A stretch of DNA of 64,000 bases from Panorpa germanica (Eukaryota > Arthropoda > Insecta > Mecoptera > Panorpidae), in the NCBI GenBank assembly GCA_963678705.1, contig OY783222.1, positions 62,001 through 126,000 of the forward strand, in the 5' to 3' direction. The notes under the pieces were generated by a model. The model made no database searches. It was given only the letters and a program-made list of their open reading frames with translations, and had not been told where the DNA came from. Below, piece by piece: positions 17,009 through 64,000 of this stretch (the stretch's first letter is position 1; the number at the start of each line of letters is the position of its first letter). Made by a program: the position numbers and the translations under genes.

Positions 17009-17017
17009 AACCCAATT

Positions 17018-17823: not shown

Positions 17824-17830
17824 TTTTATA

Positions 17831-30648: not shown

Positions 30649-30656
30649 TTATAGGG

Positions 30657-31076
30657 ATATATTCAACTGGAAAACCGCCAGATGTTAAAAATAATTAATG
30701 TTTAATACAAACTAAATGAATTAGTTTATTATATAGATATGTTAATTTATGTACTAATAAAATATTGTGTTATTATAAGAAAATGTTATTTAATTCATTA
30801 CAAGTAATTTAAAGTTTATAATTTATAATATTGTTTTGATTTTGATTAACGCAGTTTGCTACGTTCCGCTACATCTAGCGGTAACTTTTAACAATAGTTT
30901 CTATTTCCGCTGTCTACTACACAATCGCTTATTTGACGTTTGAACAAGTTTGAACCTGCACTGCACTTCTCATATTTGAATTAATTCTTTATTACACAAA
31001 AACTACAAACATTAAAAAGAATAATATAAAATATAACAAATAAACACAGGTTTTTAAAAACGGAACACTAAAAAAT
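30657..31076 (+). promoter_or_regulatory. Upstream region of the array gene (unit 1; same in all units)
   Basis: About 420 bp lie between the unit start and the first Met codon. A TATA-like tataaaatataa sits near 31024-31035, about 45 bp before the start codon, in AT-rich sequence, so it is weak evidence. The block gctacatctagcggtaac and the following pyrimidine/purine stretch are conserved. Two substitutions (cgcttatttgacg or cgcttgtttcacg, near 30930) always travel together and define two promoter haplotypes. No known regulatory motif is assigned. Confidence 0.3.
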
Positions 31077-33873
31077 ATGGAGCACGAATCTGCAGCTAAC
31101 TTTGAGTCTCAAGTAAATATATTATTTGAATATTCGTACATAAAGAAACCTTTGATAAGATTTGACATAAATGTTTTAGAGTATGGACTATCTAATACCA
31201 AATGAAAATGTAGATAATATGCCATATTCACCTGCATCTACATTTCATGTATCTAATGAAGGTGACTTTTTGTCTGAACCTTTTGAGGATACTAGATTTG
31301 ACGATCTTAATATGGTACCGAGCTCCGTTGCTGAGAAGATGAAAAAATTGTATTCTGACTTTCATAAAGTCGAAAATAATGTTGATAATGAGTTTAAACA
31401 ATTACTTACTCAAAAGGTAATTGACTTTTTAATATATTTCATGTTGTTTTATGTAATTCATGACATTATATTTGTTTAGACTAAAATGGATAATCACCTA
31501 CATCAGTTAACTCGAAAGCTTCAAGAGTCTGAGGATCTCAGACAACGACAACATGAAAATTTAATCTCTGCCCAAATGACGTGTGAGACTTTAACTGTAA
31601 AGTTGCAGAGAGAGGAAGAACAACGGTCTGACATAATAAAACAGTATGTAAATAATGTAATAATAGCAGGTGCGGTGTGTTTGCGCTTATTCATATTTCT
31701 GCTGTTTTCAGTGTTGCAGAACTAAAAATGAATTTCCAAGCTCTAGAGGAACATTATGTAGCCGTTTCTGACAAATGCAATCAACTCGAACAGCATATTG
31801 CTTTTGTTACTGTAAATATATCAACAGTTAACGCAGAAAATACACAGCTTACTGAGAAAAATACAGGCCTAAAAGAGCAAAGTATTCTACAAAGATTTAA
31901 TAAGATATATAAATAACTTATAATATAATTAAAGTGTTATTCTTGTTATAATTTTAGTTAATTCATTGAAATATGCTGCTGAACTTCTAAAAAAGGAAAA
32001 GGATGAGATGCGAAGTAATTCTGAAAAACAAATTACACACTTTCAAGAAATATTGGAACATAGAGATGAAATAATAAAGAAAACTGAAAAAGTTCTTGAA
32101 ACTACTCAAAAAGAACATAATATAATCGCTGAATCTAATAAAACGTTTCAAAACTTGAATAACGAGGTATTATTTAAATATAGTTGAACCTCCATACATA
32201 ATGGTGTTGATACATATTTTTTGTTACAGTATTATTGTAAGATAAAGGATCTTGAAAATCAATTAGAGTCTGTTAAGAAGTCTCTAGAATTGAAAACTAA
32301 AGAGTAAGTATTGACCCATGATATAAAACCTGCATGTAATTTATTTTAAAAGACTTGTTATGGTTCTAACCGTTCTAACTTATATACTCAGCATAAAATC
32401 ATTGTCTTCCGAGCTTCAAGCCACGAAAGAAGATTTATTAACATATGCGGAAAGAAATGACCGCGAACACAGTCAATTTATGACACTAAAAGAAGAAAAG
32501 GTCAGTTGGTTTTACATATGTGTTATTATTGCAAGTATTGTAATGTAGATTGTATTTTAATTGCTCGTGTAGTTAGCAGTGCAACGACAATTAGAAGAAA
32601 TAAAGCAACAATCAGCTAAAGAAATTGAAAATTGGCAGAAAACAGTAAATGACATGTTGGCTGAAAAAGAAAATAATAATAAAGATACAAAAAACTTCAT
32701 TAAGGTAATGATTATTTTAAATACATTTATATTAAAATGCTTCATTAAAAAAAATATTTTAAGATGTTGGAAAATACTAAAGCAGAGCTGAACAATGAAA
32801 TTGTAAAACAATCAAAGAAAATAGAAAAACTAACAAAAGAACTTGAAAATTCTAATGAAGAAGTTGCACAGAAAGAAAATTGGGTAAAGGTATGTATATA
32901 TTATTATTGTCATCAAATTGTTTGTTAATCATTTGTAATTTAATAAAATAATACATTTTAGAGTATGGCAAAGGAATTGGAAAATTATAAAATTGAATGC
33001 GAGAGAAAAGTTAAAGAGACACAAGAAATATCTTCATCTAAATTACAAGAACTGGAAATGGTTAATAAAAATTTGATGAACCAGATAAACTCAACTGAAA
33101 CAAAATGTCAAAAATCTCTAACTGAAAAGGAATCAGAATTATCTGCTCTGCAAATATCTTTAAAGGAACAAAACGAAACTATAGTTAGAGCATTTATTTG
33201 TATTTTAAACTGTTTATATTATTTTACCATATTTTTAATCATTATTTCTTTAAAGGTTAACACAAATAATAAACTACAAGAAAAAACTGAGGCATTGAAT
33301 AAAAGTTCATTGATGATATCGTCTAAACAATCTGAGTTGGATACTCAATTAAAACTTACGGAAGAATTGAAAAAGAAAATAGCTGATATGAAACTATTTC
33401 CCACACCATCACCAATGTTTAATTACCCTAGAATTAGACCTAGTGCAACCCCTGTGACAAGCAATACCTCTTCGGAAGAACATAACATAAAAGGAATAAA
33501 TGACAATGTCCTTAAGATGCGTTTACTAAAAGCACAAGGACTCTATGAGTCACTTTCAAATGATTCCATGTCTGACAGCAGCTTGGAATGCACACCAGTA
33601 ATAAATTAATAATTTATTTATCAGTTTTAATTATTAACAATGTTTAATACTTTTATTCTTTAGGTTTTACAAAAGAGTTATCCATCCCAAACTAGAATGC
33701 CCCATTTCTCAGAAAGTGTGTCACGACTACGATCAATTCCAAAAAGGAAACTGAAAGCTATTACAGGGCAGCCTGAATCAGCACCGGCTAAGTTGGATAT
33801 AGAACCATCTCCGGGAGTTCCGAAAGTACCCAAACTTAAGAACATGTGGTACGATGGTCCAAAAGGCGATTAA
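31077..33873 (+). CDS. Array gene copy 1: 676-aa coiled-coil protein, SYCP1-like candidate
   Basis: Exons joined by GT/AG borders: 31077-31112, 31180-31416, 31480-31643, 31712-31881, 31958-32166, 32230-32303, 32392-32500, 32573-32704, 32764-32889, 32962-33183, 33256-33597, 33664-33873. Phases agree throughout and sum to 2031 bases. Residues 1-60 are polar and acidic (start MEHESAANFESQ). About 60-538 is nearly continuous coiled coil, starting near VAEKMKKLYSDFHKV. The tail (539-676) is Ser/Pro-rich (KLFPTPSPMF, LECTPVL, EPSPGVP) and basic, ending KNMWYDGPKGD. A flexible N-terminus, long coil and SP/TP-rich basic tail with a terminal SPG...K..KM-type block resemble SYCP1, the transverse filament joining paired meiotic chromosomes. 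Coiled coils mislead, so the family is unproven. Alleles: R51, M152, K215, Q413. Confidence 0.85.
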
Positions 33874-33901
33874 TTCGTTATTCATAAATTTATTTGAATT
33901 A

Positions 33902-33992
33902 TTTCCAGTTGGGACAACATTATTTTTAACATCATATCTGGCGGGTATATTCGAATATATTCAACTGGAAAACCGCCAGATGTTAAAAATAA
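33902..33992. repeat. Unit-junction interleaved inverted repeats (unit 1/2; same at each junction)
   Basis: Arm tttccagttg (33902-33911) is inverse to caactggaaa (33962-33971), and arm ttatttttaacatc..tctggcgg (33920-33944) is inverse to ccgccagatgttaaaaataa (33973-33992). The order is A, B, A', B', so the two pairings interleave rather than nest. A self-complementary tattcgaata lies between them (33949-33958). It lies in the presumed 3' UTR and marks the border between units. Confidence 0.75.
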
Positions 33993-34053
33993 TTAATGTT
34001 TAATACAAACTAAATGAATTAGTTTATTATATAGATATGTTAATTTATGTACT

Positions 34054-34059
34054 AATAAA
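34054..34059 (+). terminator. Candidate polyadenylation signal of the array gene
   Basis: aataaa occurs 181 bases after the stop codon, already inside the next unit; the same spacing holds in every unit. No closer canonical signal is present. If it is used, each 3' UTR spans the unit junction, and only about 315 bp remain before the next start codon. Confidence 0.4.
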
Positions 34060-34374
34060 ATATTGTGTTATTATAAGAAAATGTTATTTAATTCATTACA
34101 AGTAATTTAAAGTTTATAATTTATAATATTGTTTTGATTTTGATTAACGCAGTTTGCTACGTTCTGCTACATCTAGCGGTAACTTTTAACAATAGTTTCT
34201 ATTTCCGCTGTCTACTACACAATCGCTTGTTTCACGTTTGAACAAGTTTGAACCTGCACTGCACTTCTCATATTTGAATTAATTCTTTATTACACAAAAA
34301 CTACAAACATTAAAAAGAATAATATAAAATATAACAAATAAACACAGGTTTTTAAAAACGGAACACTAAAAAAT

Positions 34375-37171
34375 ATGGAGCACGAATCTGCAGCTAACTT
34401 TGAGTCTCAAGTAAATATATTATTTGAATATTCGTACATAAAGAAACCTTTGATAAGATTTGACATAAATGTTTTAGAGTATGGACTATCTAATACCAAA
34501 TGAAAATGTAGATAATATGCCATATTCACCTGCATCTACATTTCATGTATCTAATGAAGGTGACTTTTTGTCTGAACCTTTTGAGGATACTAGATTTGAC
34601 GATCTTAATATGGTACCGAGCTCCGTTGCTGAGAAGATGAAAAAATTGTATTCTGACTTTCATAAAGTCGAAAATAATGTTGATAATGAGTTTAAACAAT
34701 TACTTACTCAAAAGGTAATTGACTTTTTAATATATTTCATGTTGTTTTATGTAATTCATGACATTATATTTGTTTAGACTAAAATGGATAATCACCTACA
34801 TCAGTTAACTCGAAAGCTTCAAGAGTCTGAGGATCTCAGACAACGACAACATGAAAATTTAATCTCTGCCCAAATGACGTGTGAGACTTTAACTGTAAAG
34901 TTGCAGAGAGAGGAAGAACAACGGTCTGACATAATAAAACAGTATGTAAATAATGTAATAATAGCAGGTGCGGTGTGTTTGCGCTTATTCATATTTCTGC
35001 TGTTTTCAGTGTTGCAGAACTAAAAATGAATTTCCAAGCTCTAGAGGAACATTATGTAGCCGTTTCTGACAAATGCAATCAACTCGAACAGCATATTGCT
35101 TTTGTTACTGTAAATATATCAACAGTTAACGCAGAAAATACACAGCTTACTGAGAAAAATACAGGCCTAAAAGAGCAAAGTATTCTACAAAGATTTAATA
35201 AGATATATAAATAACTTATAATATAATTAAAGTGTTATTCTTGTTATAATTTTAGTTAATTCATTGAAATATGCTGCTGAACTTCTAAAAAAGGAAAAGG
35301 ATGAGATGCGAAGTAATTCTGAAAAACAAATTACACACTTTCAAGAAATATTGGAACATAGAGATGAAATAATAAAGAAAACTGAAAAAGTTCTTGAAAC
35401 TACTCAAAAAGAACATAATATAATCGCTGAATCTAATAAAACGTTTCAAAACTTGAATAACGAGGTATTATTTAAATATAGTTGAACCTCCATACATAAT
35501 GGTGTTGATACATATTTTTTGTTACAGTATTATTGTAAGATAAAGGATCTTGAAAATCAATTAGAGTCTGTTAAGAAGTCTCTAGAATTGAAAACTAAAG
35601 AGTAAGTATTGACCCATGATATAAAACCTGCATGTAATTTATTTTAAAAGACTTGTTATGGTTCTAACCGTTCTAACTTATATACTCAGCATAAAATCAT
35701 TGTCTTCCGAGCTTCAAGCCACGAAAGAAGATTTATTAACATATGCGGAAAGAAATGACCGCGAACACAGTCAATTTATGACACTAAAAGAAGAAAAGGT
35801 CAGTTGGTTTTACATATGTGTTATTATTGCAAGTATTGTAATGTAGATTGTATTTTAATTGCTCGTGTAGTTAGCAGTGCAACGACAATTAGAAGAAATA
35901 AAGCAACAATCAGCTAAAGAAATTGAAAATTGGCAGAAAACAGTAAATGACATGTTGGCTGAAAAAGAAAATAATAATAAAGATACAAAAAACTTCATTA
36001 AGGTAATGATTATTTTAAATACATTTATATTAAAATGCTTCATTAAAAAAAATATTTTAAGATGTTGGAAAATACTAAAGCAGAGCTGAACAATGAAATT
36101 GTAAAACAATCAAAGAAAATAGAAAAACTAACAAAAGAACTTGAAAATTCTAATGAAGAAGTTGCACAGAAAGAAAATTGGGTAAAGGTATGTATATATT
36201 ATTATTGTCATCAAATTGTTTGTTAATCATTTGTAATTTAATAAAATAATACATTTTAGAGTATGGCAAAGGAATTGGAAAATTATAAAATTGAATGCGA
36301 GAGAAAAGTTAAAGAGACACAAGAAATATCTTCATCTAAATTACAAGAACTGGAAATGGTTAATAAAAATTTGATGAACCAGATAAACTCAACTGAAACA
36401 AAATGTCAAAAATCTCTAACTGAAAAGGAATCAGAATTATCTGCTCTGCAAATATCTTTAAAGGAACAAAACGAAACTATAGTTAGAGCATTTATTTGTA
36501 TTTTAAACTGTTTATATTATTTTACCATATTTTTAATCATTATTTCTTTAAAGGTTAACACAAATAATAAACTACAAGAAAAAACTGAGGCATTGAATAA
36601 AAGTTCATTGATGATATCGTCTAAACAATCTGAGTTGGATACTCAATTAAAACTTACGGAAGAATTGAAAAAGAAAATAGCTGATATGAAACTATTTCCC
36701 ACACCATCACCAATGTTTAATTACCCTAGAATTAGACCTAGTGCAACCCCTGTGACAAGCAATACCTCTTCGGAAGAACATAACATAAAAGGAATAAATG
36801 ACAATGTCCTTAAGATGCGTTTACTAAAAGCACAAGGACTCTATGAGTCACTTTCAAATGATTCCATGTCTGACAGCAGCTTGGAATGCACACCAGTAAT
36901 AAATTAATAATTTATTTATCAGTTTTAATTATTAACAATGTTTAATACTTTTATTCTTTAGGTTTTACAAAAGAGTTATCCATCCCAAACTAGAATGCCC
37001 CATTTCTCAGAAAGTGTGTCACGACTACGATCAATTCCAAAAAGGAAACTGAAAGCTATTACAGGGCAGCCTGAATCAGCACCGGCTAAGTTGGATATAG
37101 AACCATCTCCGGGAGTTCCGAAAGTACCCAAACTTAAGAACATGTGGTACGATGGTCCAAAAGGCGATTAA
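34375..37171 (+). CDS. Array gene copy 2
   Basis: All twelve exons are at copy-1 positions plus 3298, with all splice sites intact and no stop or frameshift seen. It encodes the same protein alleles as copy 1 (R51, M152, K215, Q413); these are the only two copies with Gln413. It differs upstream: it carries the gcttgtttcacg promoter haplotype and gttctgc where copy 1 has gttccgc. Function as proposed for copy 1. Confidence 0.85.
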
Positions 37172-37672
37172 TTCGTTATTCATAAATTTATTTGAATTAT
37201 TTCCAGTTGGGACAACATTATTTTTAACATCATATCTGGCGGGTATATTCGAATATATTCAACTGGAAAACCGCCAGATGTTAAAAATAATTAATGTTTA
37301 ATACAAACTAAATGAATTAGTTTATTATATAGATATGTTAATTTATGTACTAATAAAATATTGTGTTATTATAAGAAAATGTTATTTAATTCATTACAAG
37401 TAATTTAAAGTTTATAATTTATAATATTGTTTTGATTTTGATTAACGCAGTTTGCTACGTTCCGCTACATCTAGCGGTAACTTTTAACAATAGTTTCTAT
37501 TTCCGCTGTCTACTACACAATCGCTTATTTGACGTTTGAACAAGTTTGAACCTGCACTGCACTTCTCATATTTGAATTAATTCTTTATTACACAAAAACT
37601 ACAAACATTAAAAAGAATAATATAAAATATAACAAATAAACACAGGTTTTTAAAAACGGAACACTAAAAAAT

Positions 37673-40469
37673 ATGGAGCACGAATCTGCAGCTAACTTTG
37701 AGTCTCAAGTAAATATATTATTTGAATATTCGTACATAAAGAAACCTTTGATAAGATTTGACATAAATGTTTTAGAGTATGGACTATCTAATACCAAATG
37801 AAAATGTAGATAATATGCCATATTCACCTGCATCTACATTTCATGTATCTAATGAAGGTGACTTTTTGTCTGAACCTTTTGAGGATACTGGATTTGACGA
37901 TCTTAATATGGTACCGAGCTCCGTTGCTGAGAAGATGAAAAAATTGTATTCTGACTTTCATAAAGTCGAAAATAATGTTGATAATGAGTTTAAACAATTA
38001 CTTACTCAAAAGGTAATTGACTTTTTAATATATTTCATGTTGTTTTATGTAATTCATGACATTATATTTGTTTAGACTAAAATGGATAATCACCTACATC
38101 AGTTAACTCGAAAGCTTCAAGAGTCTGAGGATCTCAGACAACGACAACATGAAAATTTAATCTCTGCCCAAATGACGTGTGAGACTTTAACTGTAAAGTT
38201 GCAGAGAGAGGAAGAACAACGGTCTGACATAATAAAACAGTATGTAAATAATGTAATAATAGCAGGTGCGGTGTGTTTGCGCTTATTCATATTTCTGCTG
38301 TTTTCAGTGTTGCAGAACTAAAAGTGAATTTCCAAGCTCTAGAGGAACATTATGTAGCCGTTTCTGACAAATGCAATCAACTCGAACAGCATATTGCTTT
38401 TGTTACTGTAAATATATCAACAGTTAACGCAGAAAATACACAGCTTACTGAGAAAAATACAGGCCTAAAAGAGCAAAGTATTCTACAAAGATTTAATAAG
38501 ATATATAAATAACTTATAATATAATTAAAGTGTTATTCTTGTTATAATTTTAGTTAATTCATTGAAATATGCTGCTGAACTTCTAAAAAGGGAAAAGGAT
38601 GAGATGCGAAGTAATTCTGAAAAACAAATTACACACTTTCAAGAAATATTGGAACATAGAGATGAAATAATAAAGAAAACTGAAAAAGTTCTTGAAACTA
38701 CTCAAAAAGAACATAATATAATCGCTGAATCTAATAAAACGTTTCAAAACTTGAATAACGAGGTATTATTTAAATATAGTTGAACCTCCATACATAATGG
38801 TGTTGATACATATTTTTTGTTACAGTATTATTGTAAGATAAAGGATCTTGAAAATCAATTAGAGTCTGTTAAGAAGTCTCTAGAATTGAAAACTAAAGAG
38901 TAAGTATTGACCCATGATATAAAACCTGCATGTAATTTATTTTAAAAGACTTGTTATGGTTCTAACCGTTCTAACTTATATACTCAGCATAAAATCATTG
39001 TCTTCCGAGCTTCAAGCCACGAAAGAAGATTTATTAACATATGCGGAAAGAAATGACCGCGAACACAGTCAATTTATGACACTAAAAGAAGAAAAGGTCA
39101 GTTGGTTTTACATATGTGTTATTATTGCAAGTATTGTAATGTAGATTGTATTTTAATTGCTCGTGTAGTTAGCAGTGCAACGACAATTAGAAGAAATAAA
39201 GCAACAATCAGCTAAAGAAATTGAAAATTGGCAGAAAACAGTAAATGACATGTTGGCTGAAAAAGAAAATAATAATAAAGATACAAAAAACTTCATTAAG
39301 GTAATGATTATTTTAAATACATTTATATTAAAATGCTTCATTAAAAAAAATATTTTAAGATGTTGGAAAATACTAAAGCAGAGCTGAACAATGAAATTGT
39401 AAAACAATCAAAGAAAATAGAAAAACTAACAAAAGAACTTGAAAATTCTAATGAAGAAGTTGCAAAGAAAGAAAATTGGGTAAAGGTATGTATATATTAT
39501 TATTGTCATCAAATTGTTTGTTAATCATTTGTAATTTAATAAAATAATACATTTTAGAGTATGGCAAAGGAATTGGAAAATTATAAAATTGAATGCGAGA
39601 GAAAAGTTAAAGAGACACAAGAAATATCTTCATCTAAATTACAAGAACTGGAAATGGTTAATAAAAATTTGATGAACCAGATAAACTCAACTGAAACAAA
39701 ATGTCAAAAATCTCTAACTGAAAAGGAATCAGAATTATCTGCTCTGCAAATATCTTTAAAGGAACAAAACGAAACTATAGTTAGAGCATTTATTTGTATT
39801 TTAAACTGTTTATATTATTTTACCATATTTTTAATCATTATTTCTTTAAAGGTTAACACAAATAATAAACTACAAGAAAAAACTGAGGCATTGAATAAAA
39901 GTTCATTGATGATATCGTCTAAACAATCTGAGTTGGATACTCAATTAAAACTTACGGAAGAATTGAAAAAGAAAATAGCTGATATGAAACTATTTCCCAC
40001 ACCATCACCAATGTTTAATTACCCTAGAATTAGACCTAGTGCAACCCCTGTGACAAGCAATACCTCTTCGGAAGAACATAACATAAAAGGAATAAATGAC
40101 AATGTCCTTAAGATGCGTTTACTAAAGGCACAAGGACTCTATGAGTCACTTTCAAATGATTCCATGTCTGACAGCAGCTTGGAATGCACACCAGTAATAA
40201 ATTAATAATTTATTTATCAGTTTTAATTATTAACAATGTTTAATACTTTTATTCTTTAGGTTTTACAAAAGAGTTATCCATCCCAAACTAGAATGCCCCA
40301 TTTCTCAGAAAGTGTGTCACGACTACGATCAATTCCAAAAAGGAAACTGAAAGCTATTACAGGGCAGCCTGAATCAGCACCGGCTAAGTTGGATATAGAA
40401 CCATCTCCGGGAGTTCCGAAAGTACCCAAACTTAAGAACATGTGGTACGATGGTCCAAAAGGCGATTAA
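37673..40469 (+). CDS. Array gene copy 3 (most divergent protein)
   Basis: Intact, exons at copy-1 positions plus 6596. It carries two private changes: R51G in the acidic N-terminal region (gatactgga) and K215R in the coiled coil (aaaaaggga). It also has V152 and K413. Upstream it has the gcttatttgacg haplotype. A silent aaggcac variant in exon 11 is shared with copies 4, 7 and 10. Both private changes are conservative for solubility and coil formation, except that Gly51 may loosen the N-terminal segment. Confidence 0.85.
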
Positions 40470-40970
40470 TTCGTTATTCATAAATTTATTTGAATTATTT
40501 CCAGTTGGGACAACATTATTTTTAACATCATATCTGGCGGGTATATTCGAATATATTCAACTGGAAAACCGCCAGATGTTAAAAATAATTAATGTTTAAT
40601 ACAAACTAAATGAATTAGTTGATTATATAGATATGTTAATTTATGTACTAATAAAATATTGTGTTATTATAAGAAAATGTTATTTAATTCATTACAAGTA
40701 ATTTAAAGTTTATAATTTATAATATTGTTTTGATTTTGATTAACGCAGTTTGCTACGTTCTGCTACATCTAGCGGTAACTTTTAACAATAGTTTCTATTT
40801 CCGCTGTCTACTACACAATCGCTTGTTTCACGTTTGAACAAGTTTGAACCTGCACTGCACTTCTCATATTTGAATTAATTCTTTATTACACAAAAACTAC
40901 AAACATTAAAAAGAATAATATAAAATATAACAAATAAACACAGGTTTTTAAAAACGGAACACTAAAAAAT

Positions 40971-43767
40971 ATGGAGCACGAATCTGCAGCTAACTTTGAG
41001 TCTCAAGTAAATATATTATTTGAATATTCGTACATAAAGAAACCTTTGATAAGATTTGACATAAATGTTTTAGAGTATGGACTATCTAATACCAAATGAA
41101 AATGTAGATAATATGCCATATTCACCTGCATCTACATTTCATGTATCTAATGAAGGTGACTTTTTGTCTGAACCTTTTGAGGATACTAGATTTGACGATC
41201 TTAATATGGTACCGAGCTCCGTTGCTGAGAAGATGAAAAAATTGTATTCTGACTTTCATAAAGTCGAAAATAATGTTGATAATGAGTTTAAACAATTACT
41301 TACTCAAAAGGTAATTGACTTTTTAATATATTTCATGTTGTTTTATGTAATTCATGACATTATATTTGTTTAGACTAAAATGGATAATCACCTACATCAG
41401 TTAACTCGAAAGCTTCAAGAGTCTGAGGATCTCAGACAACGACAACATGAAAATTTAATCTCTGCCCAAATGACGTGTGAGACTTTAACTGTAAAGTTGC
41501 AGAGAGAGGAAGAACAACGGTCTGACATAATAAAACAGTATGTAAATAATGTAATAATAGCAGGTGCGGTGTGTTTGCGCTTATTCATATTTCTGCTGTT
41601 TTCAGTGTTGCAGAACTAAAAGTGAATTTCCAAGCTCTAGAGGAACATTATGTAGCCGTTTCTGACAAATGCAATCAACTCGAACAGCATATTGCTTTTG
41701 TTACTGTAAATATATCAACAGTTAACGCAGAAAATACACAGCTTACTGAGAAAAATACAGGCCTAAAAGAGCAAAGTATTCTACAAAGATTTAATAAGAT
41801 ATATAAATAACTTATAATATAATTAAAGTGTTATTCTTGTTATAATTTTAGTTAATTCATTGAAATATGCTGCTGAACTTCTAAAAAAGGAAAAGGATGA
41901 GATGCGAAGTAATTCTGAAAAACAAATTACACACTTTCAAGAAATATTGGAACATAGAGATGAAATAATAAAGAAAACTGAAAAAGTTCTTGAAACTACT
42001 CAAAAAGAACATAATATAATCGCTGAATCTAATAAAACGTTTCAAAACTTGAATAACGAGGTATTATTTAAATATAGTTGAACCTCCATACATAATGGTG
42101 TTGATACATATTTTTTGTTACAGTATTATTGTAAGATAAAGGATCTTGAAAATCAATTAGAGTCTGTTAAGAAGTCTCTAGAATTGAAAACTAAAGAGTA
42201 AGTATTGACCCATGATATAAAACCTGCATGTAATTTATTTTAAAAGACTTGTTATGGTTCTAACCGTTCTAACTTATATACTCAGCATAAAATCATTGTC
42301 TTCCGAGCTTCAAGCCACGAAAGAAGATTTATTAACATATGCGGAAAGAAATGACCGCGAACACAGTCAATTTATGACACTAAAAGAAGAAAAGGTCAGT
42401 TGGTTTTACATATGTGTTATTATTGCAAGTATTGTAATGTAGATTGTATTTTAATTGCTCGTGTAGTTAGCAGTGCAACGACAATTAGAAGAAATAAAGC
42501 AACAATCAGCTAAAGAAATTGAAAATTGGCAGAAAACAGTAAATGACATGTTGGCTGAAAAAGAAAATAATAATAAAGATACAAAAAACTTCATTAAGGT
42601 AATGATTATTTTAAATACATTTATATTAAAATGCTTCATTAAAAAAAATATTTTAAGATGTTGGAAAATACTAAAGCAGAGCTGAACAATGAAATTGTAA
42701 AACAATCAAAGAAAATAGAAAAACTAACAAAAGAACTTGAAAATTCTAATGAAGAAGTTGCAAAGAAAGAAAATTGGGTAAAGGTATGTATATATTATTA
42801 TTGTCATCAAATTGTTTGTTAATCATTTGTAATTTAATAAAATAATACATTTTAGAGTATGGCAAAGGAATTGGAAAATTATAAAATTGAATGCGAGAGA
42901 AAAGTTAAAGAGACACAAGAAATATCTTCATCTAAATTACAAGAACTGGAAATGGTTAATAAAAATTTGATGAACCAGATAAACTCAACTGAAACAAAAT
43001 GTCAAAAATCTCTAACTGAAAAGGAATCAGAATTATCTGCTCTGCAAATATCTTTAAAGGAACAAAACGAAACTATAGTTAGAGCATTTATTTGTATTTT
43101 AAACTGTTTATATTATTTTACCATATTTTTAATCATTATTTCTTTAAAGGTTAACACAAATAATAAACTACAAGAAAAAACTGAGGCATTGAATAAAAGT
43201 TCATTGATGATATCGTCTAAACAATCTGAGTTGGATACTCAATTAAAACTTACGGAAGAATTGAAAAAGAAAATAGCTGATATGAAACTATTTCCCACAC
43301 CATCACCAATGTTTAATTACCCTAGAATTAGACCTAGTGCAACCCCTGTGACAAGCAATACCTCTTCGGAAGAACATAACATAAAAGGAATAAATGACAA
43401 TGTCCTTAAGATGCGTTTACTAAAGGCACAAGGACTCTATGAGTCACTTTCAAATGATTCCATGTCTGACAGCAGCTTGGAATGCACACCAGTAATAAAT
43501 TAATAATTTACTTATCAGTTTTAATTATTAACAATGTTTAATACTTTTATTCTTTAGGTTTTACAAAAGAGTTATCCATCCCAAACTAGAATGCCCCATT
43601 TCTCAGAAAGTGTGTCACGACTACGATCAATTCCAAAAAGGAAACTGAAAGCTATTACAGGGCAGCCTGAATCAGCACCGGCTAAGTTGGATATAGAACC
43701 ATCTCCGGGAGTTCCGAAAGTACCCAAACTTAAGAACATGTGGTACGATGGTCCAAAAGGCGATTAA
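40971..43767 (+). CDS. Array gene copy 4
   Basis: Intact, exons at copy-1 positions plus 9894. Protein alleles R51, V152, K215, K413, which is the majority form. Upstream gcttgtttcacg haplotype with agttgatt. Exon 11 has the silent aaggcac variant and intron 11 has atttactta, a combination not found in any other copy. Confidence 0.85.
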
Positions 43768-44268
43768 TTCGTTATTCATAAATTTATTTGAATTATTTCC
43801 AGTTGGGACAACATTATTTTTAACATCATATCTGGCGGGTATATTCGAATATATTCAACTGGAAAACCGCCAGATGTTAAAAATAATTAATGTTTAATAC
43901 AAACTAAATGAATTAGTTGATTATATAGATATGTTAATTTATGTACTAATAAAATATTGTGTTATTATAAGAAAATGTTATTTAATTCATTACAAGTAAT
44001 TTAAAGTTTATAATTTATAATATTGTTTTGATTTTGATTAACGCAGTTTGCTACGTTCCGCTACATCTAGCGGTAACTTTTAACAATAGTTTCTATTTCC
44101 GCTGTCTACTACACAATCGCTTATTTGACGTTTGAACAAGTTTGAACCTGCACTGCACTTCTCATATTTGAATTAATTCTTTATTACACAAAAACTACAA
44201 ACATTAAAAAGAATAATATAAAATATAACAAATAAACACAGGTTTTTAAAAACGGAACACTAAAAAAT

Positions 44269-50864: not shown

Positions 50865-53661
50865 ATGGAGCACGAATCTGCAGCTAACTTTGAGTCTCAA
50901 GTAAATATATTATTTGAATATTCGTACATAAAGAAACCTTTGATAAGATTTGACATAAATGTTTTAGAGTATGGACTATCTAATACCAAATGAAAATGTA
51001 GATAATATGCCATATTCACCTGCATCTACATTTCATGTATCTAATGAAGGTGACTTTTTGTCTGAACCTTTTGAGGATACTAGATTTGACGATCTTAATA
51101 TGGTACCGAGCTCCGTTGCTGAGAAGATGAAAAAATTGTATTCTGACTTTCATAAAGTCGAAAATAATGTTGATAATGAGTTTAAACAATTACTTACTCA
51201 AAAGGTAATTGACTTTTTAATATATTTCATGTTGTTTTATGTAATTCATGACATTATATTTGTTTAGACTAAAATGGATAATCACCTACATCAGTTAACT
51301 CGAAAGCTTCAAGAGTCTGAGGATCTCAGACAACGACAACATGAAAATTTAATCTCTGCCCAAATGACGTGTGAGACTTTAACTGTAAAGTTGCAGAGAG
51401 AGGAAGAACAACGGTCTGACATAATAAAACAGTATGTAAATAATGTAATAATAGCAGGTGCGGTGTGTTTGCGCTTATTCATATTTCTGCTGTTTTCAGT
51501 GTTGCAGAACTAAAAATGAATTTCCAAGCTCTAGAGGAACATTATGTAGCCGTTTCTGACAAATGCAATCAACTCGAACAGCATATTGCTTTTGTTACTG
51601 TAAATATATCAACAGTTAACGCAGAAAATACACAGCTTACTGAGAAAAATACAGGCCTAAAAGAGCAAAGTATTCTACAAAGATTTAATAAGATATATAA
51701 ATAACTTATAATATAATTAAAGTGTTATTCTTGTTATAATTTTAGTTAATTCATTGAAATATGCTGCTGAACTTCTAAAAAAGGAAAAGGATGAGATGCG
51801 AAGTAATTCTGAAAAACAAATTACACACTTTCAAGAAATATTGGAACATAGAGATGAAATAATAAAGAAAACTGAAAAAGTTCTTGAAACTACTCAAAAA
51901 GAACATAATATAATCGCTGAATCTAATAAAACGTTTCAAAACTTGAATAACGAGGTATTATTTAAATATAGTTGAACCTCCATACATAATGGTGTTGATA
52001 CATATTTTTTGTTACAGTATTATTGTAAGATAAAGGATCTTGAAAATCAATTAGAGTCTGTTAAGAAGTCTCTAGAATTGAAAACTAAAGAGTAAGTATT
52101 GACCCATGATATAAAACCTGCATGTAATTTATTTTAAAAGACTTGTTATGGTTCTAACCGTTCTAACTTATATACTCAGCATAAAATCATTGTCTTCCGA
52201 GCTTCAAGCCACGAAAGAAGATTTATTAACATATGCGGAAAGAAATGACCGCGAACACAGTCAATTTATGACACTAAAAGAAGAAAAGGTCAGTTGGTTT
52301 TACATATGTGTTATTATTGCAAGTATTGTAATGTAGATTGTATTTTAATTGCTCGTGTAGTTAGCAGTGCAACGACAATTAGAAGAAATAAAGCAACAAT
52401 CAGCTAAAGAAATTGAAAATTGGCAGAAAACAGTAAATGACATGTTGGCTGAAAAAGAAAATAATAATAAAGATACAAAAAACTTCATTAAGGTAATGAT
52501 TATTTTAAATACATTTATATTAAAATGCTTCATTAAAAAAAATATTTTAAGATGTTGGAAAATACTAAAGCAGAGCTGAACAATGAAATTGTAAAACAAT
52601 CAAAGAAAATAGAAAAACTAACAAAAGAACTTGAAAATTCTAATGAAGAAGTTGCAAAGAAAGAAAATTGGGTAAAGGTATGTATATATTATTATTGTCA
52701 TCAAATTGTTTGTTAATCATTTGTAATTTAATAAAATAATACATTTTAGAGTATGGCAAAGGAATTGGAAAATTATAAAATTGAATGCGAGAGAAAAGTT
52801 AAAGAGACACAAGAAATATCTTCATCTAAATTACAAGAACTGGAAATGGTTAATAAAAATTTGATGAACCAGATAAACTCAACTGAAACAAAATGTCAAA
52901 AATCTCTAACTGAAAAGGAATCAGAATTATCTGCTCTGCAAATATCTTTAAAGGAACAAAACGAAACTATAGTTAGAGCATTTATTTGTATTTTAAACTG
53001 TTTATATTATTTTACCATATTTTTAATCATTATTTCTTTAAAGGTTAACACAAATAATAAACTACAAGAAAAAACTGAGGCATTGAATAAAAGTTCATTG
53101 ATGATATCGTCTAAACAATCTGAGTTGGATACTCAATTAAAACTTACGGAAGAATTGAAAAAGAAAATAGCTGATATGAAACTATTTCCCACACCATCAC
53201 CAATGTTTAATTACCCTAGAATTAGACCTAGTGCAACCCCTGTGACAAGCAATACCTCTTCGGAAGAACATAACATAAAAGGAATAAATGACAATGTCCT
53301 TAAGATGCGTTTACTAAAGGCACAAGGACTCTATGAGTCACTTTCAAATGATTCCATGTCTGACAGCAGCTTGGAATGCACACCAGTAATAAATTAATAA
53401 TTTATTTATCAGTTTTAATTATTAACAATGTTTAATACTTTTATTCTTTAGGTTTTACAAAAGAGTTATCCATCCCAAACTAGAATGCCCCATTTCTCAG
53501 AAAGTGTGTCACGACTACGATCAATTCCAAAAAGGAAACTGAAAGCTATTACAGGGCAGCCTGAATCAGCACCGGCTAAGTTGGATATAGAACCATCTCC
53601 GGGAGTTCCGAAAGTACCCAAACTTAAGAACATGTGGTACGATGGTCCAAAAGGCGATTAA
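50865..53661 (+). CDS. Array gene copy 7
   Basis: Intact, exons at copy-1 positions plus 19788. It has M152 as in copies 1 and 2, but K413 as in copies 3-10, so it is a protein-level recombinant. Upstream gcttgtttcacg haplotype; exon 11 has the silent aaggcac variant. Confidence 0.85.
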
Positions 53662-54162
53662 TTCGTTATTCATAAATTTATTTGAATTATTTCCAGTTGG
53701 GACAACATTATTTTTAACATCATATCTGGCGGGTATATTCGAATATATTCAACTGGAAAACCGCCAGATGTTAAAAATAATTAATGTTTAATACAAACTA
53801 AATGAATTAGTTGATTATATAGATATGTTAATTTATGTACTAATAAAATATTGTGTTATTATAAGAAAATGTTATTTAATTCATTACAAGTAATTTAAAG
53901 TTTATAATTTATAATATTGTTTTGATTTTGATTAACGCAGTTTGCTACGTTCTGCTACATCTAGCGGTAACTTTTAACAATAGTTTCTATTTCCGCTGTC
54001 TACTACACAATCGCTTATTTGACGTTTGAACAAGTTTGAACCTGCACTGCACTTCTCATATTTGAATTAATTCTTTATTACACAAAAACTACAAACATTA
54101 AAAAGAATAATATAAAATATAACAAATAAACACAGGTTTTTAAAAACGGAACACTAAAAAAT

Positions 54163-56959
54163 ATGGAGCACGAATCTGCAGCTAACTTTGAGTCTCAAGT
54201 AAATATATTATTTGAATATTCGTACATAAAGAAACCTTTGATAAGATTTGACATAAATGTTTTAGAGTATGGACTATCTAATACCAAATGAAAATGTAGA
54301 TAATATGCCATATTCACCTGCATCTACATTTCATGTATCTAATGAAGGTGACTTTTTGTCTGAACCTTTTGAGGATACTAGATTTGACGATCTTAATATG
54401 GTACCGAGCTCCGTTGCTGAGAAGATGAAAAAATTGTATTCTGACTTTCATAAAGTCGAAAATAATGTTGATAATGAGTTTAAACAATTACTTACTCAAA
54501 AGGTAATTGACTTTTTAATATATTTCATGTTGTTTTATGTAATTCATGACATTATATTTGTTTAGACTAAAATGGATAATCACCTACATCAGTTAACTCG
54601 AAAGCTTCAAGAGTCTGAGGATCTCAGACAACGACAACATGAAAATTTAATCTCTGCCCAAATGACGTGTGAGACTTTAACTGTAAAGTTGCAGAGAGAG
54701 GAAGAACAACGGTCTGACATAATAAAACAGTATGTAAATAATGTAATAATAGCAGGTGCGGTGTGTTTGCGCTTATTCATATTTCTGCTGTTTTCAGTGT
54801 TGCAGAACTAAAAGTGAATTTCCAAGCTCTAGAGGAACATTATGTAGCCGTTTCTGACAAATGCAATCAACTCGAACAGCATATTGCTTTTGTTACTGTA
54901 AATATATCAACAGTTAACGCAGAAAATACACAGCTTACTGAGAAAAATACAGGCCTAAAAGAGCAAAGTATTCTACAAAGATTTAATAAGATATATAAAT
55001 AACTTATAATATAATTAAAGTGTTATTCTTGTTATAATTTTAGTTAATTCATTGAAATATGCTGCTGAACTTCTAAAAAAGGAAAAGGATGAGATGCGAA
55101 GTAATTCTGAAAAACAAATTACACACTTTCAAGAAATATTGGAACATAGAGATGAAATAATAAAGAAAACTGAAAAAGTTCTTGAAACTACTCAAAAAGA
55201 ACATAATATAATCGCTGAATCTAATAAAACGTTTCAAAACTTGAATAACGAGGTATTATTTAAATATAGTTGAACCTCCATACATAATGGTGTTGATACA
55301 TATTTTTTGTTACAGTATTATTGTAAGATAAAAGATCTTGAAAATCAATTAGAGTCTGTTAAGAAGTCTCTAGAATTGAAAACTAAAGAGTAAGTATTGA
55401 CCCATGATATAAAACCTGCATGTAATTTATTTTAAAAGACTTGTTATGGTTCTAACCGTTCTAACTTATATACTCAGCATAAAATCATTGTCTTCCGAGC
55501 TTCAAGCCACGAAAGAAGATTTATTAACATATGCGGAAAGAAATGACCGCGAACACAGTCAATTTATGACACTAAAAGAAGAAAAGGTCAGTTGGTTTTA
55601 CATATGTGTTATTATTGCAAGTATTGTAATGTAGATTGTATTTTAATTGCTCGTGTAGTTAGCAGTGCAACGACAATTAGAAGAAATAAAGCAACAATCA
55701 GCTAAAGAAATTGAAAATTGGCAGAAAACAGTAAATGACATGTTGGCTGAAAAAGAAAATAATAATAAAGATACAAAAAACTTCATTAAGGTAATGATTA
55801 TTTTAAATACATTTATATTAAAATGCTTCATTAAAAAAAATATTTTAAGATGTTGGAAAATACTAAAGCAGAGCTGAACAATGAAATTGTAAAACAATCA
55901 AAGAAAATAGAAAAACTAACAAAAGAACTTGAAAATTCTAATGAAGAAGTTGCAAAGAAAGAAAATTGGGTAAAGGTATGTATATATTATTATTGTCATC
56001 AAATTGTTTGTTAATCATTTGTAACTTAATAAAATAATACATTTTAGAGTATGGCAAAGGAATTGGAAAATTATAAAATTGAATGCGAGAGAAAAGTTAA
56101 AGAGACACAAGAAATATCTTCATCTAAATTACAAGAACTGGAAATGGTTAATAAAAATTTGATGAACCAGATAAACTCAACTGAAACAAAATGTCAAAAA
56201 TCTCTAACTGAAAAGGAATCAGAATTATCTGCTCTGCAAATATCTTTAAAGGAACAAAACGAAACTATAGTTAGAGCATTTATTTGTATTTTAAACTGTT
56301 TATATTATTTTACCATATTTTTAATCATTATTTCTTTAAAGGTTAACACAAATAATAAACTACAAGAAAAAACTGAGGCATTGAATAAAAGTTCATTGAT
56401 GATATCGTCTAAACAATCTGAGTTGGATACTCAATTAAAACTTACGGAAGAATTGAAAAAGAAAATAGCTGATATGAAACTATTTCCCACACCATCACCA
56501 ATGTTTAATTACCCTAGAATTAGACCTAGTGCAACCCCTGTGACAAGCAATACCTCTTCGGAAGAACATAACATAAAAGGAATAAATGACAATGTCCTTA
56601 AGATGCGTTTACTAAAAGCACAAGGACTCTATGAGTCACTTTCAAATGATTCCATGTCTGACAGCAGCTTGGAATGCACACCAGTAATAAATTAATAATT
56701 TACTTATCAGTTTTAATTATTAACAATGTTTAATACTTTTATTCTTTAGGTTTTACAAAAGAGTTATCCATCCCAAACTAGAATGCCCCATTTCTCAGAA
56801 AGTGTGTCACGACTACGATCAATTCCAAAAAGGAAACTGAAAGCTATTACAGGGCAGCCTGAATCAGCACCGGCTAAGTTGGATATAGAACCATCTCCGG
56901 GAGTACCGAAAGTACCCAAACTTAAGAACATGTGGTACGATGGTCCAAAAGGCGATTAA
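54163..56959 (+). CDS. Array gene copy 8
   Basis: Intact, exons at copy-1 positions plus 23086. Majority protein form. Upstream it pairs gttctgc with the gcttatttgacg haplotype, a recombinant shared only with copy 9. Exon 6 aaaagatc, intron 9 gtaactta and intron 11 atttactta variants are present, and exon 12 has the silent ggagtaccg variant shared only with copy 9. Confidence 0.85.
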
Positions 56960-57460
56960 TTCGTTATTCATAAATTTATTTGAATTATTTCCAGTTGGGA
57001 CAACATTATTTTTAACATCATATCTGGCGGGTATATTCGAATATATTCAACTGGAAAACCGCCAGATGTTAAAAATAATTAATGTTTAATACAAACTAAA
57101 TGAATTAGTTGATTATATAGATATGTTAATTTATGTACTAATAAAATATTGTGTTATTATAAGAAAATGTTATTTAATTCATTACAAGTAATTTAAAGTT
57201 TATAATTTATAATATTGTTTTGATTTTGATTAACGCAGTTTGCTACGTTCTGCTACATCTAGCGGTAACTTTTAACAATAGTTTCTATTTCCGCTGTCTA
57301 CTACACAATCGCTTATTTGACGTTTGAACAAGTTTGAACCTGCACTGCACTTCTCATATTTGAATTAATTCTTTATTACACAAAAACTACAAACATTAAA
57401 AAGAATAATATAAAATATAACAAATAAACACAGGTTTTTAAAAACGGAACACTAAAAAAT

Positions 57461-60257
57461 ATGGAGCACGAATCTGCAGCTAACTTTGAGTCTCAAGTAA
57501 ATATATTATTTGAATATTCGTACATAAAGAAACCTTTGATAAGATTTGACATAAATGTTTTAGAGTATGGACTATCTAATACCAAATGAAAATGTAGATA
57601 ATATGCCATATTCACCTGCATCTACATTTCATGTATCTAATGAAGGTGACTTTTTGTCTGAACCTTTTGAGGATACTAGATTTGACGATCTTAATATGGT
57701 ACCGAGCTCCGTTGCTGAGAAGATGAAAAAATTGTATTCTGACTTTCATAAAGTCGAAAATAATGTTGATAATGAGTTTAAACAATTACTTACTCAAAAG
57801 GTAATTGACTTTTTAATATATTTCATGTTGTTTTATGTAATTCATGACATTATATTTGTTTAGACTAAAATGGATAATCACCTACATCAGTTAACTCGAA
57901 AGCTTCAAGAGTCTGAGGATCTCAGACAACGACAACATGAAAATTTAATCTCTGCCCAAATGACGTGTGAGACTTTAACTGTAAAGTTGCAGAGAGAGGA
58001 AGAACAACGGTCTGACATAATAAAACAGTATGTAAATAATGTAATAATAGCAGGTGCGGTGTGTTTGCGCTTATTCATATTTCTGCTGTTTTCAGTGTTG
58101 CAGAACTAAAAGTGAATTTCCAAGCTCTAGAGGAACATTATGTAGCCGTTTCTGACAAATGCAATCAACTCGAACAGCATATTGCTTTTGTTACTGTAAA
58201 TATATCAACAGTTAACGCAGAAAATACACAGCTTACTGAGAAAAATACAGGCCTAAAAGAGCAAAGTATTCTACAAAGATTTAATAAGATATATAAATAA
58301 CTTATAATATAATTAAAGTGTTATTCTTGTTATAATTTTAGTTAATTCATTGAAATATGCTGCTGAACTTCTAAAAAAGGAAAAGGATGAGATGCGAAGT
58401 AATTCTGAAAAACAAATTACACACTTTCAAGAAATATTGGAACATAGAGATGAAATAATAAAGAAAACTGAAAAAGTTCTTGAAACTACTCAAAAAGAAC
58501 ATAATATAATCGCTGAATCTAATAAAACGTTTCAAAACTTGAATAACGAGGTATTATTTAAATATAGTTGAACCTCCATACATAATGGTGTTGATACATA
58601 TTTTTTGTTACAGTATTATTGTAAGATAAAGGATCTTGAAAATCAATTAGAGTCTGTTAAGAAGTCTCTAGAATTGAAAACTAAAGAGTAAGTATTGACC
58701 CATGATATAAAACCTGCATGTAATTTATTTTAAAAGACTTGTTATGGTTCTAACCGTTCTAACTTATATACTCAGCATAAAATCATTGTCTTCCGAGCTT
58801 CAAGCCACGAAAGAAGATTTATTAACATATGCGGAAAGAAATGACCGCGAACACAGTCAATTTATGACACTAAAAGAAGAAAAGGTCAGTTGGTTTTACA
58901 TATGTGTTATTATTGCAAGTATTGTAATGTAGATTGTATTTTAATTGCTCGTGTAGTTAGCAGTGCAACGACAATTAGAAGAAATAAAGCAACAATCAGC
59001 TAAAGAAATTGAAAATTGGCAGAAAACAGTAAATGACATGTTGGCTGAAAAAGAAAATAATAATAAAGATACAAAAAACTTCATTAAGGTAATGATTATT
59101 TTAAATACATTTATATTAAAATGCTTCATTAAAAAAAATATTTTAAGATGTTGGAAAATACTAAAGCAGAGCTGAACAATGAAATTGTAAAACAATCAAA
59201 GAAAATAGAAAAACTAACAAAAGAACTTGAAAATTCTAATGAAGAAGTTGCAAAGAAAGAAAATTGGGTAAAGGTATGTATATATTATTATTGTCATCAA
59301 ATTGTTTGTTAATCATTTGTAATTTAATAAAATAATACATTTTAGAGTATGGCAAAGGAATTGGAAAATTATAAAATTGAATGCGAGAGAAAAGTTAAAG
59401 AGACACAAGAAATATCTTCATCTAAATTACAAGAACTGGAAATGGTTAATAAAAATTTGATGAACCAGATAAACTCAACTGAAACAAAATGTCAAAAATC
59501 TCTAACTGAAAAGGAATCAGAATTATCTGCTCTGCAAATATCTTTAAAGGAACAAAACGAAACTATAGTTAGAGCATTTATTTGTATTTTAAACTGTTTA
59601 TATTATTTTACCATATTTTTAATCATTATTTCTTTAAAGGTTAACACAAATAATAAACTACAAGAAAAAACTGAGGCATTGAATAAAAGTTCATTGATGA
59701 TATCGTCTAAACAATCTGAGTTGGATACTCAATTAAAACTTACGGAAGAATTGAAAAAGAAAATAGCTGATATGAAACTATTTCCCACACCATCACCAAT
59801 GTTTAATTACCCTAGAATTAGACCTAGTGCAACCCCTGTGACAAGCAATACCTCTTCGGAAGAACATAACATAAAAGGAATAAATGACAATGTCCTTAAG
59901 ATGCGTTTACTAAAAGCACAAGGACTCTATGAGTCACTTTCAAATGATTCCATGTCTGACAGCAGCTTGGAATGCACACCAGTAATAAATTAATAATTTA
60001 TTTATCAGTTTTAATTATTAACAATGTTTAATACTTTTATTCTTTAGGTTTTACAAAAGAGTTATCCATCCCAAACTAGAATGCCCCATTTCTCAGAAAG
60101 TGTGTCACGACTACGATCAATTCCAAAAAGGAAACTGAAAGCTATTACAGGGCAGCCTGAATCAGCACCGGCTAAGTTGGATATAGAACCATCTCCGGGA
60201 GTACCGAAAGTACCCAAACTTAAGAACATGTGGTACGATGGTCCAAAAGGCGATTAA
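57461..60257 (+). CDS. Array gene copy 9
   Basis: Intact, exons at copy-1 positions plus 26384. Majority protein form. It shares the upstream recombinant haplotype and the exon 12 ggagtaccg variant with copy 8, but not its exon 6, intron 9 or intron 11 variants. Similarity to the neighbour is therefore patchy rather than unit-wide. Confidence 0.85.
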
Positions 60258-60758
60258 TTCGTTATTCATAAATTTATTTGAATTATTTCCAGTTGGGACA
60301 ACATTATTTTTAACATCATATCTGGCGGGTATATTCGAATATATTCAACTGGAAAACCGCCAGATGTTAAAAATAATTAATGTTTAATACAAACTAAATG
60401 AATTAGTTTATTATATAGATATGTTAATTTATGTACTAATAAAATATTGTGTTATTATAAGAAAATGTTATTTAATTCATTACAAGTAATTTAAAGTTTA
60501 TAATTTATAATATTGTTTTGATTTTGATTAACGCAGTTTGCTACGTTCCGCTACATCTAGCGGTAACTTTTAACAATAGTTTCTATTTCCGCTGTCTACT
60601 ACACAATCGCTTATTTGACGTTTGAACAAGTTTGAACCTGCACTGCACTTCTCATATTTGAATTAATTCTTTATTACACAAAAACTACAAACATTAAAAA
60701 GAATAATATAAAATATAACAAATAAACACAGGTTTTTAAAAACGGAACACTAAAAAAT

Positions 60759-63555
60759 ATGGAGCACGAATCTGCAGCTAACTTTGAGTCTCAAGTAAAT
60801 ATATTATTTGAATATTCGTACATAAAGAAACCTTTGATAAGATTTGACATAAATGTTTTAGAGTATGGACTATCTAATACCAAATGAAAATGTAGATAAT
60901 ATGCCATATTCACCTGCATCTACATTTCATGTATCTAATGAAGGTGACTTTTTGTCTGAACCTTTTGAGGATACTAGATTTGACGATCTTAATATGGTAC
61001 CGAGCTCCGTTGCTGAGAAGATGAAAAAATTGTATTCTGACTTTCATAAAGTCGAAAATAATGTTGATAATGAGTTTAAACAATTACTTACTCAAAAGGT
61101 AATTGACTTTTTAATATATTTCATGTTGTTTTATGTAATTCATGACATTATATTTGTTTAGACTAAAATGGATAATCACCTACATCAGTTAACTCGAAAG
61201 CTTCAAGAGTCTGAGGATCTCAGACAACGACAACATGAAAATTTAATCTCTGCCCAAATGACGTGTGAGACTTTAACTGTAAAGTTGCAGAGAGAGGAAG
61301 AACAACGGTCTGACATAATAAAACAGTATGTAAATAATGTAATAATAGCAGGTGCGGTGTGTTTGCGCTTATTCATATTTCTGCTGTTTTCAGTGTTGCA
61401 GAACTAAAAGTGAATTTCCAAGCTCTAGAGGAACATTATGTAGCCGTTTCTGACAAATGCAATCAACTCGAACAGCATATTGCTTTTGTTACTGTAAATA
61501 TATCAACAGTTAACGCAGAAAATACACAGCTTACTGAGAAAAATACAGGCCTAAAAGAGCAAAGTATTCTACAAAGATTTAATAAGATATATAAATAACT
61601 TATAATATAATTAAAGTGTTATTCTTGTTATAATTTTAGTTAATTCATTGAAATATGCTGCTGAACTTCTAAAAAAGGAAAAGGATGAGATGCGAAGTAA
61701 TTCTGAAAAACAAATTACACACTTTCAAGAAATATTGGAACATAGAGATGAAATAATAAAGAAAACTGAAAAAGTTCTTGAAACTACTCAAAAAGAACAT
61801 AATATAATCGCTGAATCTAATAAAACGTTTCAAAACTTGAATAACGAGGTATTATTTAAATATAGTTGAACCTCCATACATAATGGTGTTGATACATATT
61901 TTTTGTTACAGTATTATTGTAAGATAAAGGATCTTGAAAATCAATTAGAGTCTGTTAAGAAGTCTCTAGAATTGAAAACTAAAGAGTAAGTATTGACCCA
62001 TGATATAAAACCTGCATGTAATTTATTTTAAAAGACTTGTTATGGTTCTAACCGTTCTAACTTATATACTCAGCATAAAATCATTGTCTTCCGAGCTTCA
62101 AGCCACGAAAGAAGATTTATTAACATATGCGGAAAGAAATGACCGCGAACACAGTCAATTTATGACACTAAAAGAAGAAAAGGTCAGTTGGTTTTACATA
62201 TGTGTTATTATTGCAAGTATTGTAATGTAGATTGTATTTTAATTGCTCGTGTAGTTAGCAGTGCAACGACAATTAGAAGAAATAAAGCAACAATCAGCTA
62301 AAGAAATTGAAAATTGGCAGAAAACAGTAAATGACATGTTGGCTGAAAAAGAAAATAATAATAAAGATACAAAAAACTTCATTAAGGTAATGATTATTTT
62401 AAATACATTTATATTAAAATGCTTCATTAAAAAAAATATTTTAAGATGTTGGAAAATACTAAAGCAGAGCTGAACAATGAAATTGTAAAACAATCAAAGA
62501 AAATAGAAAAACTAACAAAAGAACTTGAAAATTCTAATGAAGAAGTTGCAAAGAAAGAAAATTGGGTAAAGGTATGTATATATTATTATTGTCATCAAAT
62601 TGTTTGTTAATCATTTGTAATTTAATAAAATAATACATTTTAGAGTATGGCAAAGGAATTGGAAAATTATAAAATTGAATGCGAGAGAAAAGTTAAAGAG
62701 ACACAAGAAATATCTTCATCTAAATTACAAGAACTGGAAATGGTTAATAAAAATTTGATGAACCAGATAAACTCAACTGAAACAAAATGTCAAAAATCTC
62801 TAACTGAAAAGGAATCAGAATTATCTGCTCTGCAAATATCTTTAAAGGAACAAAACGAAACTATAGTTAGAGCATTTATTTGTATTTTAAACTGTTTATA
62901 TTATTTTACCATATTTTTAATCATTATTTCTTTAAAGGTTAACACAAATAATAAACTACAAGAAAAAACTGAGGCATTGAATAAAAGTTCATTGATGATA
63001 TCGTCTAAACAATCTGAGTTGGATACTCAATTAAAACTTACGGAAGAATTGAAAAAGAAAATAGCTGATATGAAACTATTTCCCACACCATCACCAATGT
63101 TTAATTACCCTAGAATTAGACCTAGTGCAACCCCTGTGACAAGCAATACCTCTTCGGAAGAACATAACATAAAAGGAATAAATGACAATGTCCTTAAGAT
63201 GCGTTTACTAAAGGCACAAGGACTCTATGAGTCACTTTCAAATGATTCCATGTCTGACAGCAGCTTGGAATGCACACCAGTAATAAATTAATAATTTATT
63301 TATCAGTTTTAATTATTAACAATGTTTAATACTTTTATTCTTTAGGTTTTACAAAAGAGTTATCCATCCCAAACTAGAATGCCCCATTTCTCAGAAAGTG
63401 TGTCACGACTACGATCAATTCCAAAAAGGAAACTGAAAGCTATTACAGGGCAGCCTGAATCAGCACCGGCTAAGTTGGATATAGAACCATCTCCGGGAGT
63501 TCCGAAAGTACCCAAACTTAAGAACATGTGGTACGATGGTCCAAAAGGCGATTAA
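60759..63555 (+). CDS. Array gene copy 10
   Basis: Intact, exons at copy-1 positions plus 29682. Majority protein form (V152, K413) but with the upstream sequence of copies 1 and 3 (agtttatt, gttccgc, gcttatttgacg). Exon 11 has the silent aaggcac variant. It is the last complete copy in the window. Confidence 0.85.
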
Positions 63556-63636
63556 TTCGTTATTCATAAATTTATTTGAATTATTTCCAGTTGGGACAAC
63601 ATTATTTTTAACATCATATCTGGCGGGTATATTCGA

Positions 63637-64000
63637 ATATATTCAACTGGAAAACCGCCAGATGTTAAAAATAATTAATGTTTAATACAAACTAAATGAA
63701 TTAGTTGATTATATAGATATGTTAATTTATGTACTAATAAAATATTGTGTTATTATAAGAAAATGTTATTTAATTCATTACAAGTAATTTAAAGTTTATA
63801 ATTTATAATATTGTTTTGATTTTGATTAACGCAGTTTGCTACGTTCTGCTACATCTAGCGGTAACTTTTAACAATAGTTTCTATTTCCGCTGTCTACTAC
63901 ACAATCGCTTGTTTCACGTTTGAACAAGTTTGAACCTGCACTGCACTTCTCATATTTGAATTAATTCTTTATTACACAAAAACTACAAACATTAAAAAGA
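63637..64000 (+). repeat. Partial unit 11 (upstream region only)
   Basis: Follows copy 10 without interruption and carries agttgatt, gttctgc and the gcttgtttcacg haplotype, as in copies 4, 6 and 7. The start codon would fall at about 64057, beyond the window, so the gene itself is not seen. Confidence 0.95.

Follow-up and report, generated by a model that had tools for sequence, protein, structure and literature searches.

The window, by which we mean the whole stretch of 64,000 nucleotides analysed here, contains a tandem array of a 3298-bp unit that runs from position 30657 to the window end, and offset self-comparison yields 10.11 units, ten of them complete and the eleventh cut off after 364 bp (Table 1). 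A spacing of 3298 is the commonest in the window (28,891 matching 24-mers in the self-comparison), and from 30657 to the window end no indel was met at this offset. The onset of the array is abrupt, as the identity at offset 3298 is sharp from 30657. Each unit comprises one entire gene, with intergenic DNA making up about 0.5 kb. We had looked for at least three complete gene copies lying head to tail, and found ten full units, all ten with an open 12-exon gene. The window ends within the array, of which one end is in view, and every unit as far as the edge copy is whole, none being truncated. A unit of 3298 bp repeated ten times and continuing had been described in a first-pass annotation of this DNA, and the self-comparison bears this out. 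To the extent that the assembly is reliable the array is real, and its copy number likewise rests on the assembly.

Table 1. Positions of the array, its genes and neighbouring features in the window.
Feature	Position	Strand	Remarks
LTR element	13624-17826		LTRs with 4 mismatches in 812 bp
Broken THAP-like relic	29478..30649	-	15-bp perfect inverted repeats at its ends (29478-29492, 30635-30649)
Tandem array	30657..64000	+	Ten full 3298-bp units and 364 bp of an eleventh; offset self-comparison
Copy k of the unit	30657+3298(k-1) to 33954+3298(k-1)	+	Offset self-comparison
First unit	30657..33954	+	3-8 differences from the other nine; not more divergent than inner units
Left arm of junction inverted repeat, outer array edge	30675..30695	.	
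Gene of copy 1, 676 aa	31077..33873	+	Same frame open in all 10 copies
Copy 1, exons 1-6	31077-31112, 31180-31416, 31480-31643, 31712-31881, 31958-32166, 32230-32303	+	
Copy 1, exons 7-12	32392-32500, 32573-32704, 32764-32889, 32962-33183, 33256-33597, 33664-33873	+	
Hairpin, junction of copies 1 and 2	33919..33993	.	Arms 33919-33944 and 33973-33993; boundary 33954/33955 in the loop
Gene of copy 10, last complete one in the window	60759..63555	+	Copy 1 coordinates + 9 x 3298

The same 12 exons are found in all ten full copies, where they join into 2031 nt including the stop, or 676 aa with a single terminal stop. Every copy has 11 GT and 11 AG splice dinucleotides, so all introns (59–88 bp) are GT-AG, and the intact 12-exon gene of 676 codons that had been proposed for each copy is confirmed. 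The 12-exon frame is not a chance ORF and resembles coding sequence, because shuffles of the CDS contain 54 stops on average and never fewer than 26 (n=2000), and there are 58 and 91 stops in the two alternative frames of the spliced CDS. The exons have a GC content of 33%, versus 21% in the introns. A retrocopy origin of the gene was considered and rejected, since introns are present in every copy, and for the same reason the duplication is placed at the DNA level. From the stop codon to the next ATG is 501 bp, and past the stop an AATAAA or ATTAAA is first encountered in the following unit, in every one of the ten copies. As this polyadenylation-type signal is met only in the next unit, the transcript 3′-end of each copy may be supplied by its neighbour.

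The encoded protein has an acidic head (pI 4.05), a proline-free coiled-coil rod of 482 residues (60–541; pI 5.95) and a basic tail (pI 9.56), and its prolines are confined to residues 19–59 and 542–673. Six of 11 protein windows show a periodicity of 3.5 residues (P ≤ 0.002); in the other five the heptad signal was not significant, and two of these lie within the rod (113–196 and 449–532). No Pfam family exceeded its cut-off for this protein, the best being ERM_helical with 20 bits versus 40 required, and sub-threshold scores of the ERM_helical type are common for coiled coils. In a protein database that is largely microbial and viral by its description, the whole protein had no homologue at E 0.001 among the 7994 candidates listed, and none was found at E 1 for residues 545–676 (81 candidates) or residues 14–180 (186 candidates). 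Pattern matches to the protein numbered 4 in viral contigs and 39 in genome contigs from collections that are largely microbial and viral by description, none of which was confirmed. RNA genes were found neither by Rfam at the gathering threshold nor by ARAGORN with the bacterial code. Our best guess is that the gene product is a coiled-coil rod with a structural role, perhaps in the germline or on the chromosome.

SYCP1 has a basic C-terminal tail. The array protein likewise combines a basic tail with a long central coiled coil between end domains, the general architecture of a synaptonemal-complex transverse filament, but one that many unrelated coiled-coil proteins would share. The array protein shares its long coiled coil with SYCP1, including the SYCP1 of Bombyx mori (PMC10151401). 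The array protein aligned with the human CM1 no better than shuffles did (the score was reached by 54/500 and 59/500 of them), and the best local CM1 alignment was at residues 346–441, outside the N-terminal part. It gave no Pfam SCP-1 row at E 10, in a search where HMMER filters drop weak matches, and its PDB matches, taken at E 1 and at E 10, included no SYCP1 chain. An SYCP1 identity therefore has no support by sequence, and we keep it solely as an architectural likeness. The Bombyx paper reports that SYCP1 orthologues have little overall similarity and that synaptonemal-complex proteins are hard to recognise across species (PMC10151401), which means that a true member could fail these tests and leaves the idea unsupported rather than excluded. 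We regard it as a long shot that the array carries a rapidly evolved transverse-filament gene of the SYCP1 type from a moth or butterfly, amplified and homogenised on a chromosome that is sex-limited or driving, with the dosage of a synapsis protein as a target of meiotic conflict.

Among the ten full units we find 13 variable sites, corresponding to a pi of 0.0017 (0.00168). The 45 copy pairs differ at 2–9 of 3298 positions, with a mean of 5.5, which is a divergence of 0.06–0.27%; their identity of 99.73–99.94% lies above the 99% that characterises ampliconic sex-chromosome genes. Seven of the 13 substitutions are coding (4 nonsynonymous, 3 synonymous), 2 are intronic and 4 intergenic. Two sites are singletons, and the 11 informative sites form 55 pairs, of which 27 fail the four-gamete test, with a minimum number of recombination intervals (Rm) of 5. 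Such failures require recombination or conversion (or repeated mutation) and point to exchange between copies, that is, concerted evolution, although an assembly mosaic could mimic the pattern. Copies lying far apart in the array are no more divergent than neighbouring ones (Mantel r 0.01, P 0.44, ten copies), nor does the edge copy diverge more than the inner copies do. The view that the copies are either very young or homogenised, already put forward in the first-pass annotation, agrees with the low pi, the four-gamete failures and the flat relation to distance, and we find it supported that the copies are young or recently homogenised; they seem to have exchanged DNA recently. With an insect mutation rate near 3e-9 per generation, the observed pi would correspond to about 0.3 million generations, a very rough figure that ignores conversion. 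Sites 211, 275 and 279 switch between two states across copies 1–6, and from this alternation we infer that the array may have grown partly via two-unit steps.

These variants also bear on whether the array could be an artefact, in which fewer true copies exist and the assembler either went round a shorter array repeatedly or conflated two haplotypes. The mosaic nature of the variant patterns, and the fact that the window ends inside the array, would fit such an error, but at 11 of the 13 variable sites each state is carried by at least two copies, and the copies combine these states in differing ways; the units are therefore not a verbatim repetition of one path. We consider an artefact of this kind improbable.

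The unit junctions are marked by an inverted repeat of 21 matched bases with one 5-base gap, which lies within the last 36 and the first 39 bases of the unit and has its arms 10 and 18 bp from the unit boundary. These 75 bases are identical at 10 of 10 junctions in the window, and the left arm also opens the array at its outer edge. The junction fold has a z of -5.3, with 0/200 shuffles as good, and none of 1646 pairs of segments drawn at random from the unit reached the inverted-repeat alignment score of 32. The breakpoints of the duplication lie at the inverted-repeat arms, and to judge from this position the inverted repeat could have caused the duplication. Alternatively, the unit could be a gene-carrying mobile element with inverted repeats at its ends, inserted in tandem from a circle. 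The arms at both unit ends, the boundary placed in a hairpin loop and a 7-bp direct repeat with a three-base spacer, seen by eye to span the junction, would all suit such an element, but no transposase was seen in the unit, the inverted repeat is subterminal rather than strictly terminal, and elsewhere in the window only 12 short matches to the unit occur, of at most 46 bp (best E 0.002). We consider a mobile element very improbable.

We favor the explanation, which we think likely, that a real nuclear gene with introns was recently amplified head to tail and that its copies undergo homogenisation. The gene would be that of an animal, probably an insect, and signatures in the repeats of the window would point to a moth or butterfly. 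The first tandem pair would have arisen by a DNA-level duplication with breakpoints beside the two inverted-repeat arms that flank the gene, and unequal exchange between sisters or homologues could then have enlarged the array, in part perhaps by two units at a time. Gene conversion or unequal exchange may since have gone on mixing variants, up to and including the edge copy, and the copies would owe their intactness to a functional founder gene and to the small number of mutations since. The event is of a known kind, notable for its length and perfection; in our judgement, arrays of at least 10 complete, multi-exon, near-identical genes are uncommon, and the present one retains enough variants to reveal exchange between its copies.

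In the first-pass annotation the intactness of the copies was partly ascribed to selection keeping them functional. However, only 4.0–4.5% of all possible substitutions in the unit are disabling, in the sense that a start, stop, frame or splice dinucleotide is lost, and the probability of finding no disabling change among 13 substitutions under no constraint at all is 0.55–0.59; about 73 substitutions would be required for a P of 0.05. The lack of indels carries no more weight, since for assumed indel:substitution ratios of 0.1 and 0.2 the probability of zero indels is 0.27 and 0.07, respectively. The ratio of 4 nonsynonymous to 3 synonymous changes is within the neutral expectation (P(<=4 missense) 0.16–0.37), and coding sequence is not poorer in variable sites (7/2031) than non-coding sequence (6/1267, P 0.58). 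As 13 substitutions are too few to give intactness any power to reveal selection, we reject selection as a deduction from intactness and find no support there for the earlier claim.

A reading in which copy number itself was favored, for dosage, as a sex-linked ampliconic gene or through meiotic conflict, and in which purifying selection has preserved every copy, is consistent with ten intact copies out of ten, with precedents in Drosophila discussed below, and with a rod-shaped protein whose basic tail would fit a role in chromosome structure. Against it stand the weightlessness of intactness at 13 substitutions, the neutral-like ratio of coding changes and the undiminished variability of coding sites, and we judge it rather unlikely. 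The array could also be a neutral transient, a tandem duplication that arose by chance in a region rich in repeats and bearing satellites and has been turned over by unequal exchange with no benefit from copy number; to this reading we give slightly less than an even chance. Its youth and the absence of a selection signal would be expected on this account, and besides two satellite arrays and a young LTR element the window contains a 3-kb segment in two copies that are 98.6% identical; on the other hand, the absence of a selection signal is equally an absence of power, and ten whole units reach the edge copy with none truncated, at the one array end in view.

As for known systems, ord has been amplified to over 20 copies on the neo-sex chromosomes of Drosophila miranda, for which meiotic conflict was hypothesised (PMC11761671). 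The ord array resembles the present one as a tandem amplification to many copies, but is linked to neo-sex chromosomes, whereas sex linkage and a meiotic role would be hypothetical for the array described here. The same paper states that synaptonemal-complex genes duplicate often in Drosophila, and that tandem duplicates of c(3)G, which encodes the transverse filament, reach up to five copies (PMC11761671). With c(3)G our gene shares tandem duplication and a long coiled coil between two end domains, a likeness of build alone, and its copy number is higher than the five given there. On the W chromosome of Pieris mannii, a copied segment was expanded by tandem repeats from an 81.6-kb region to 200 kb (PMC10306273). 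That is a tandem expansion of a copied segment, as here, but involves an 81.6-kb region of the W, whereas the present unit holds one gene. The overall copy number of W genes in Ostrinia furnacalis is below that of their paralogues (PMC11064298), and this weighs against presuming that an amplified gene is W-linked. In a literature search by titles and the starts of abstracts, using terms other than species, we noticed no description of such an array. If the array is sex-linked or germline-expressed, it would be a ready case for testing copy-number conflict; if it is neither, it is a clear warning that finding all copies intact is uninformative on selection in copies this young.

The intact copies had also been contrasted with neighbouring relics that were all described as broken. 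All copies are indeed intact, but the LTR element of the window is young and has an open gag-like frame of 750 aa, which makes the contrast weaker than was held. In this frame gag, zinc-knuckle and SAP exceed their Pfam cut-offs and a protease falls under its own; no reverse transcriptase family matched it at E 0.01. The THAP-like relic, separated from the array by 7 bases, has two separate pieces that match Pfam THAP (E 0.023 and 0.0022), both under the curated cut-off, so its earlier label is weakly borne out. The Tc1-like open piece at 3164–3610 has no Pfam match at E 0.01.

Several further repeats were observed in the window. A 275-bp satellite with a higher-order spacing of 551 bp occupies positions 1–3197 and extends off the window start, and a second satellite-like array, of a 271-bp unit, lies at 21671–23999. 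The 3-kb segment is found at 17831–20860 and again at 24770–27800 (98.6% identity); by eye it contains repeated exon-like blocks with splice-like dinucleotides at their edges, and it is possibly a repeated non-coding transcription unit. Finally, a 353-bp repeat is present at 6470–6822 and 9697–10049 with 98.9% identity. One motif of its tail had no occurrence in viral contigs, and five strings had none in papers; by its end the repeat resembles what we take to be a lepidopteran retroposon tail.
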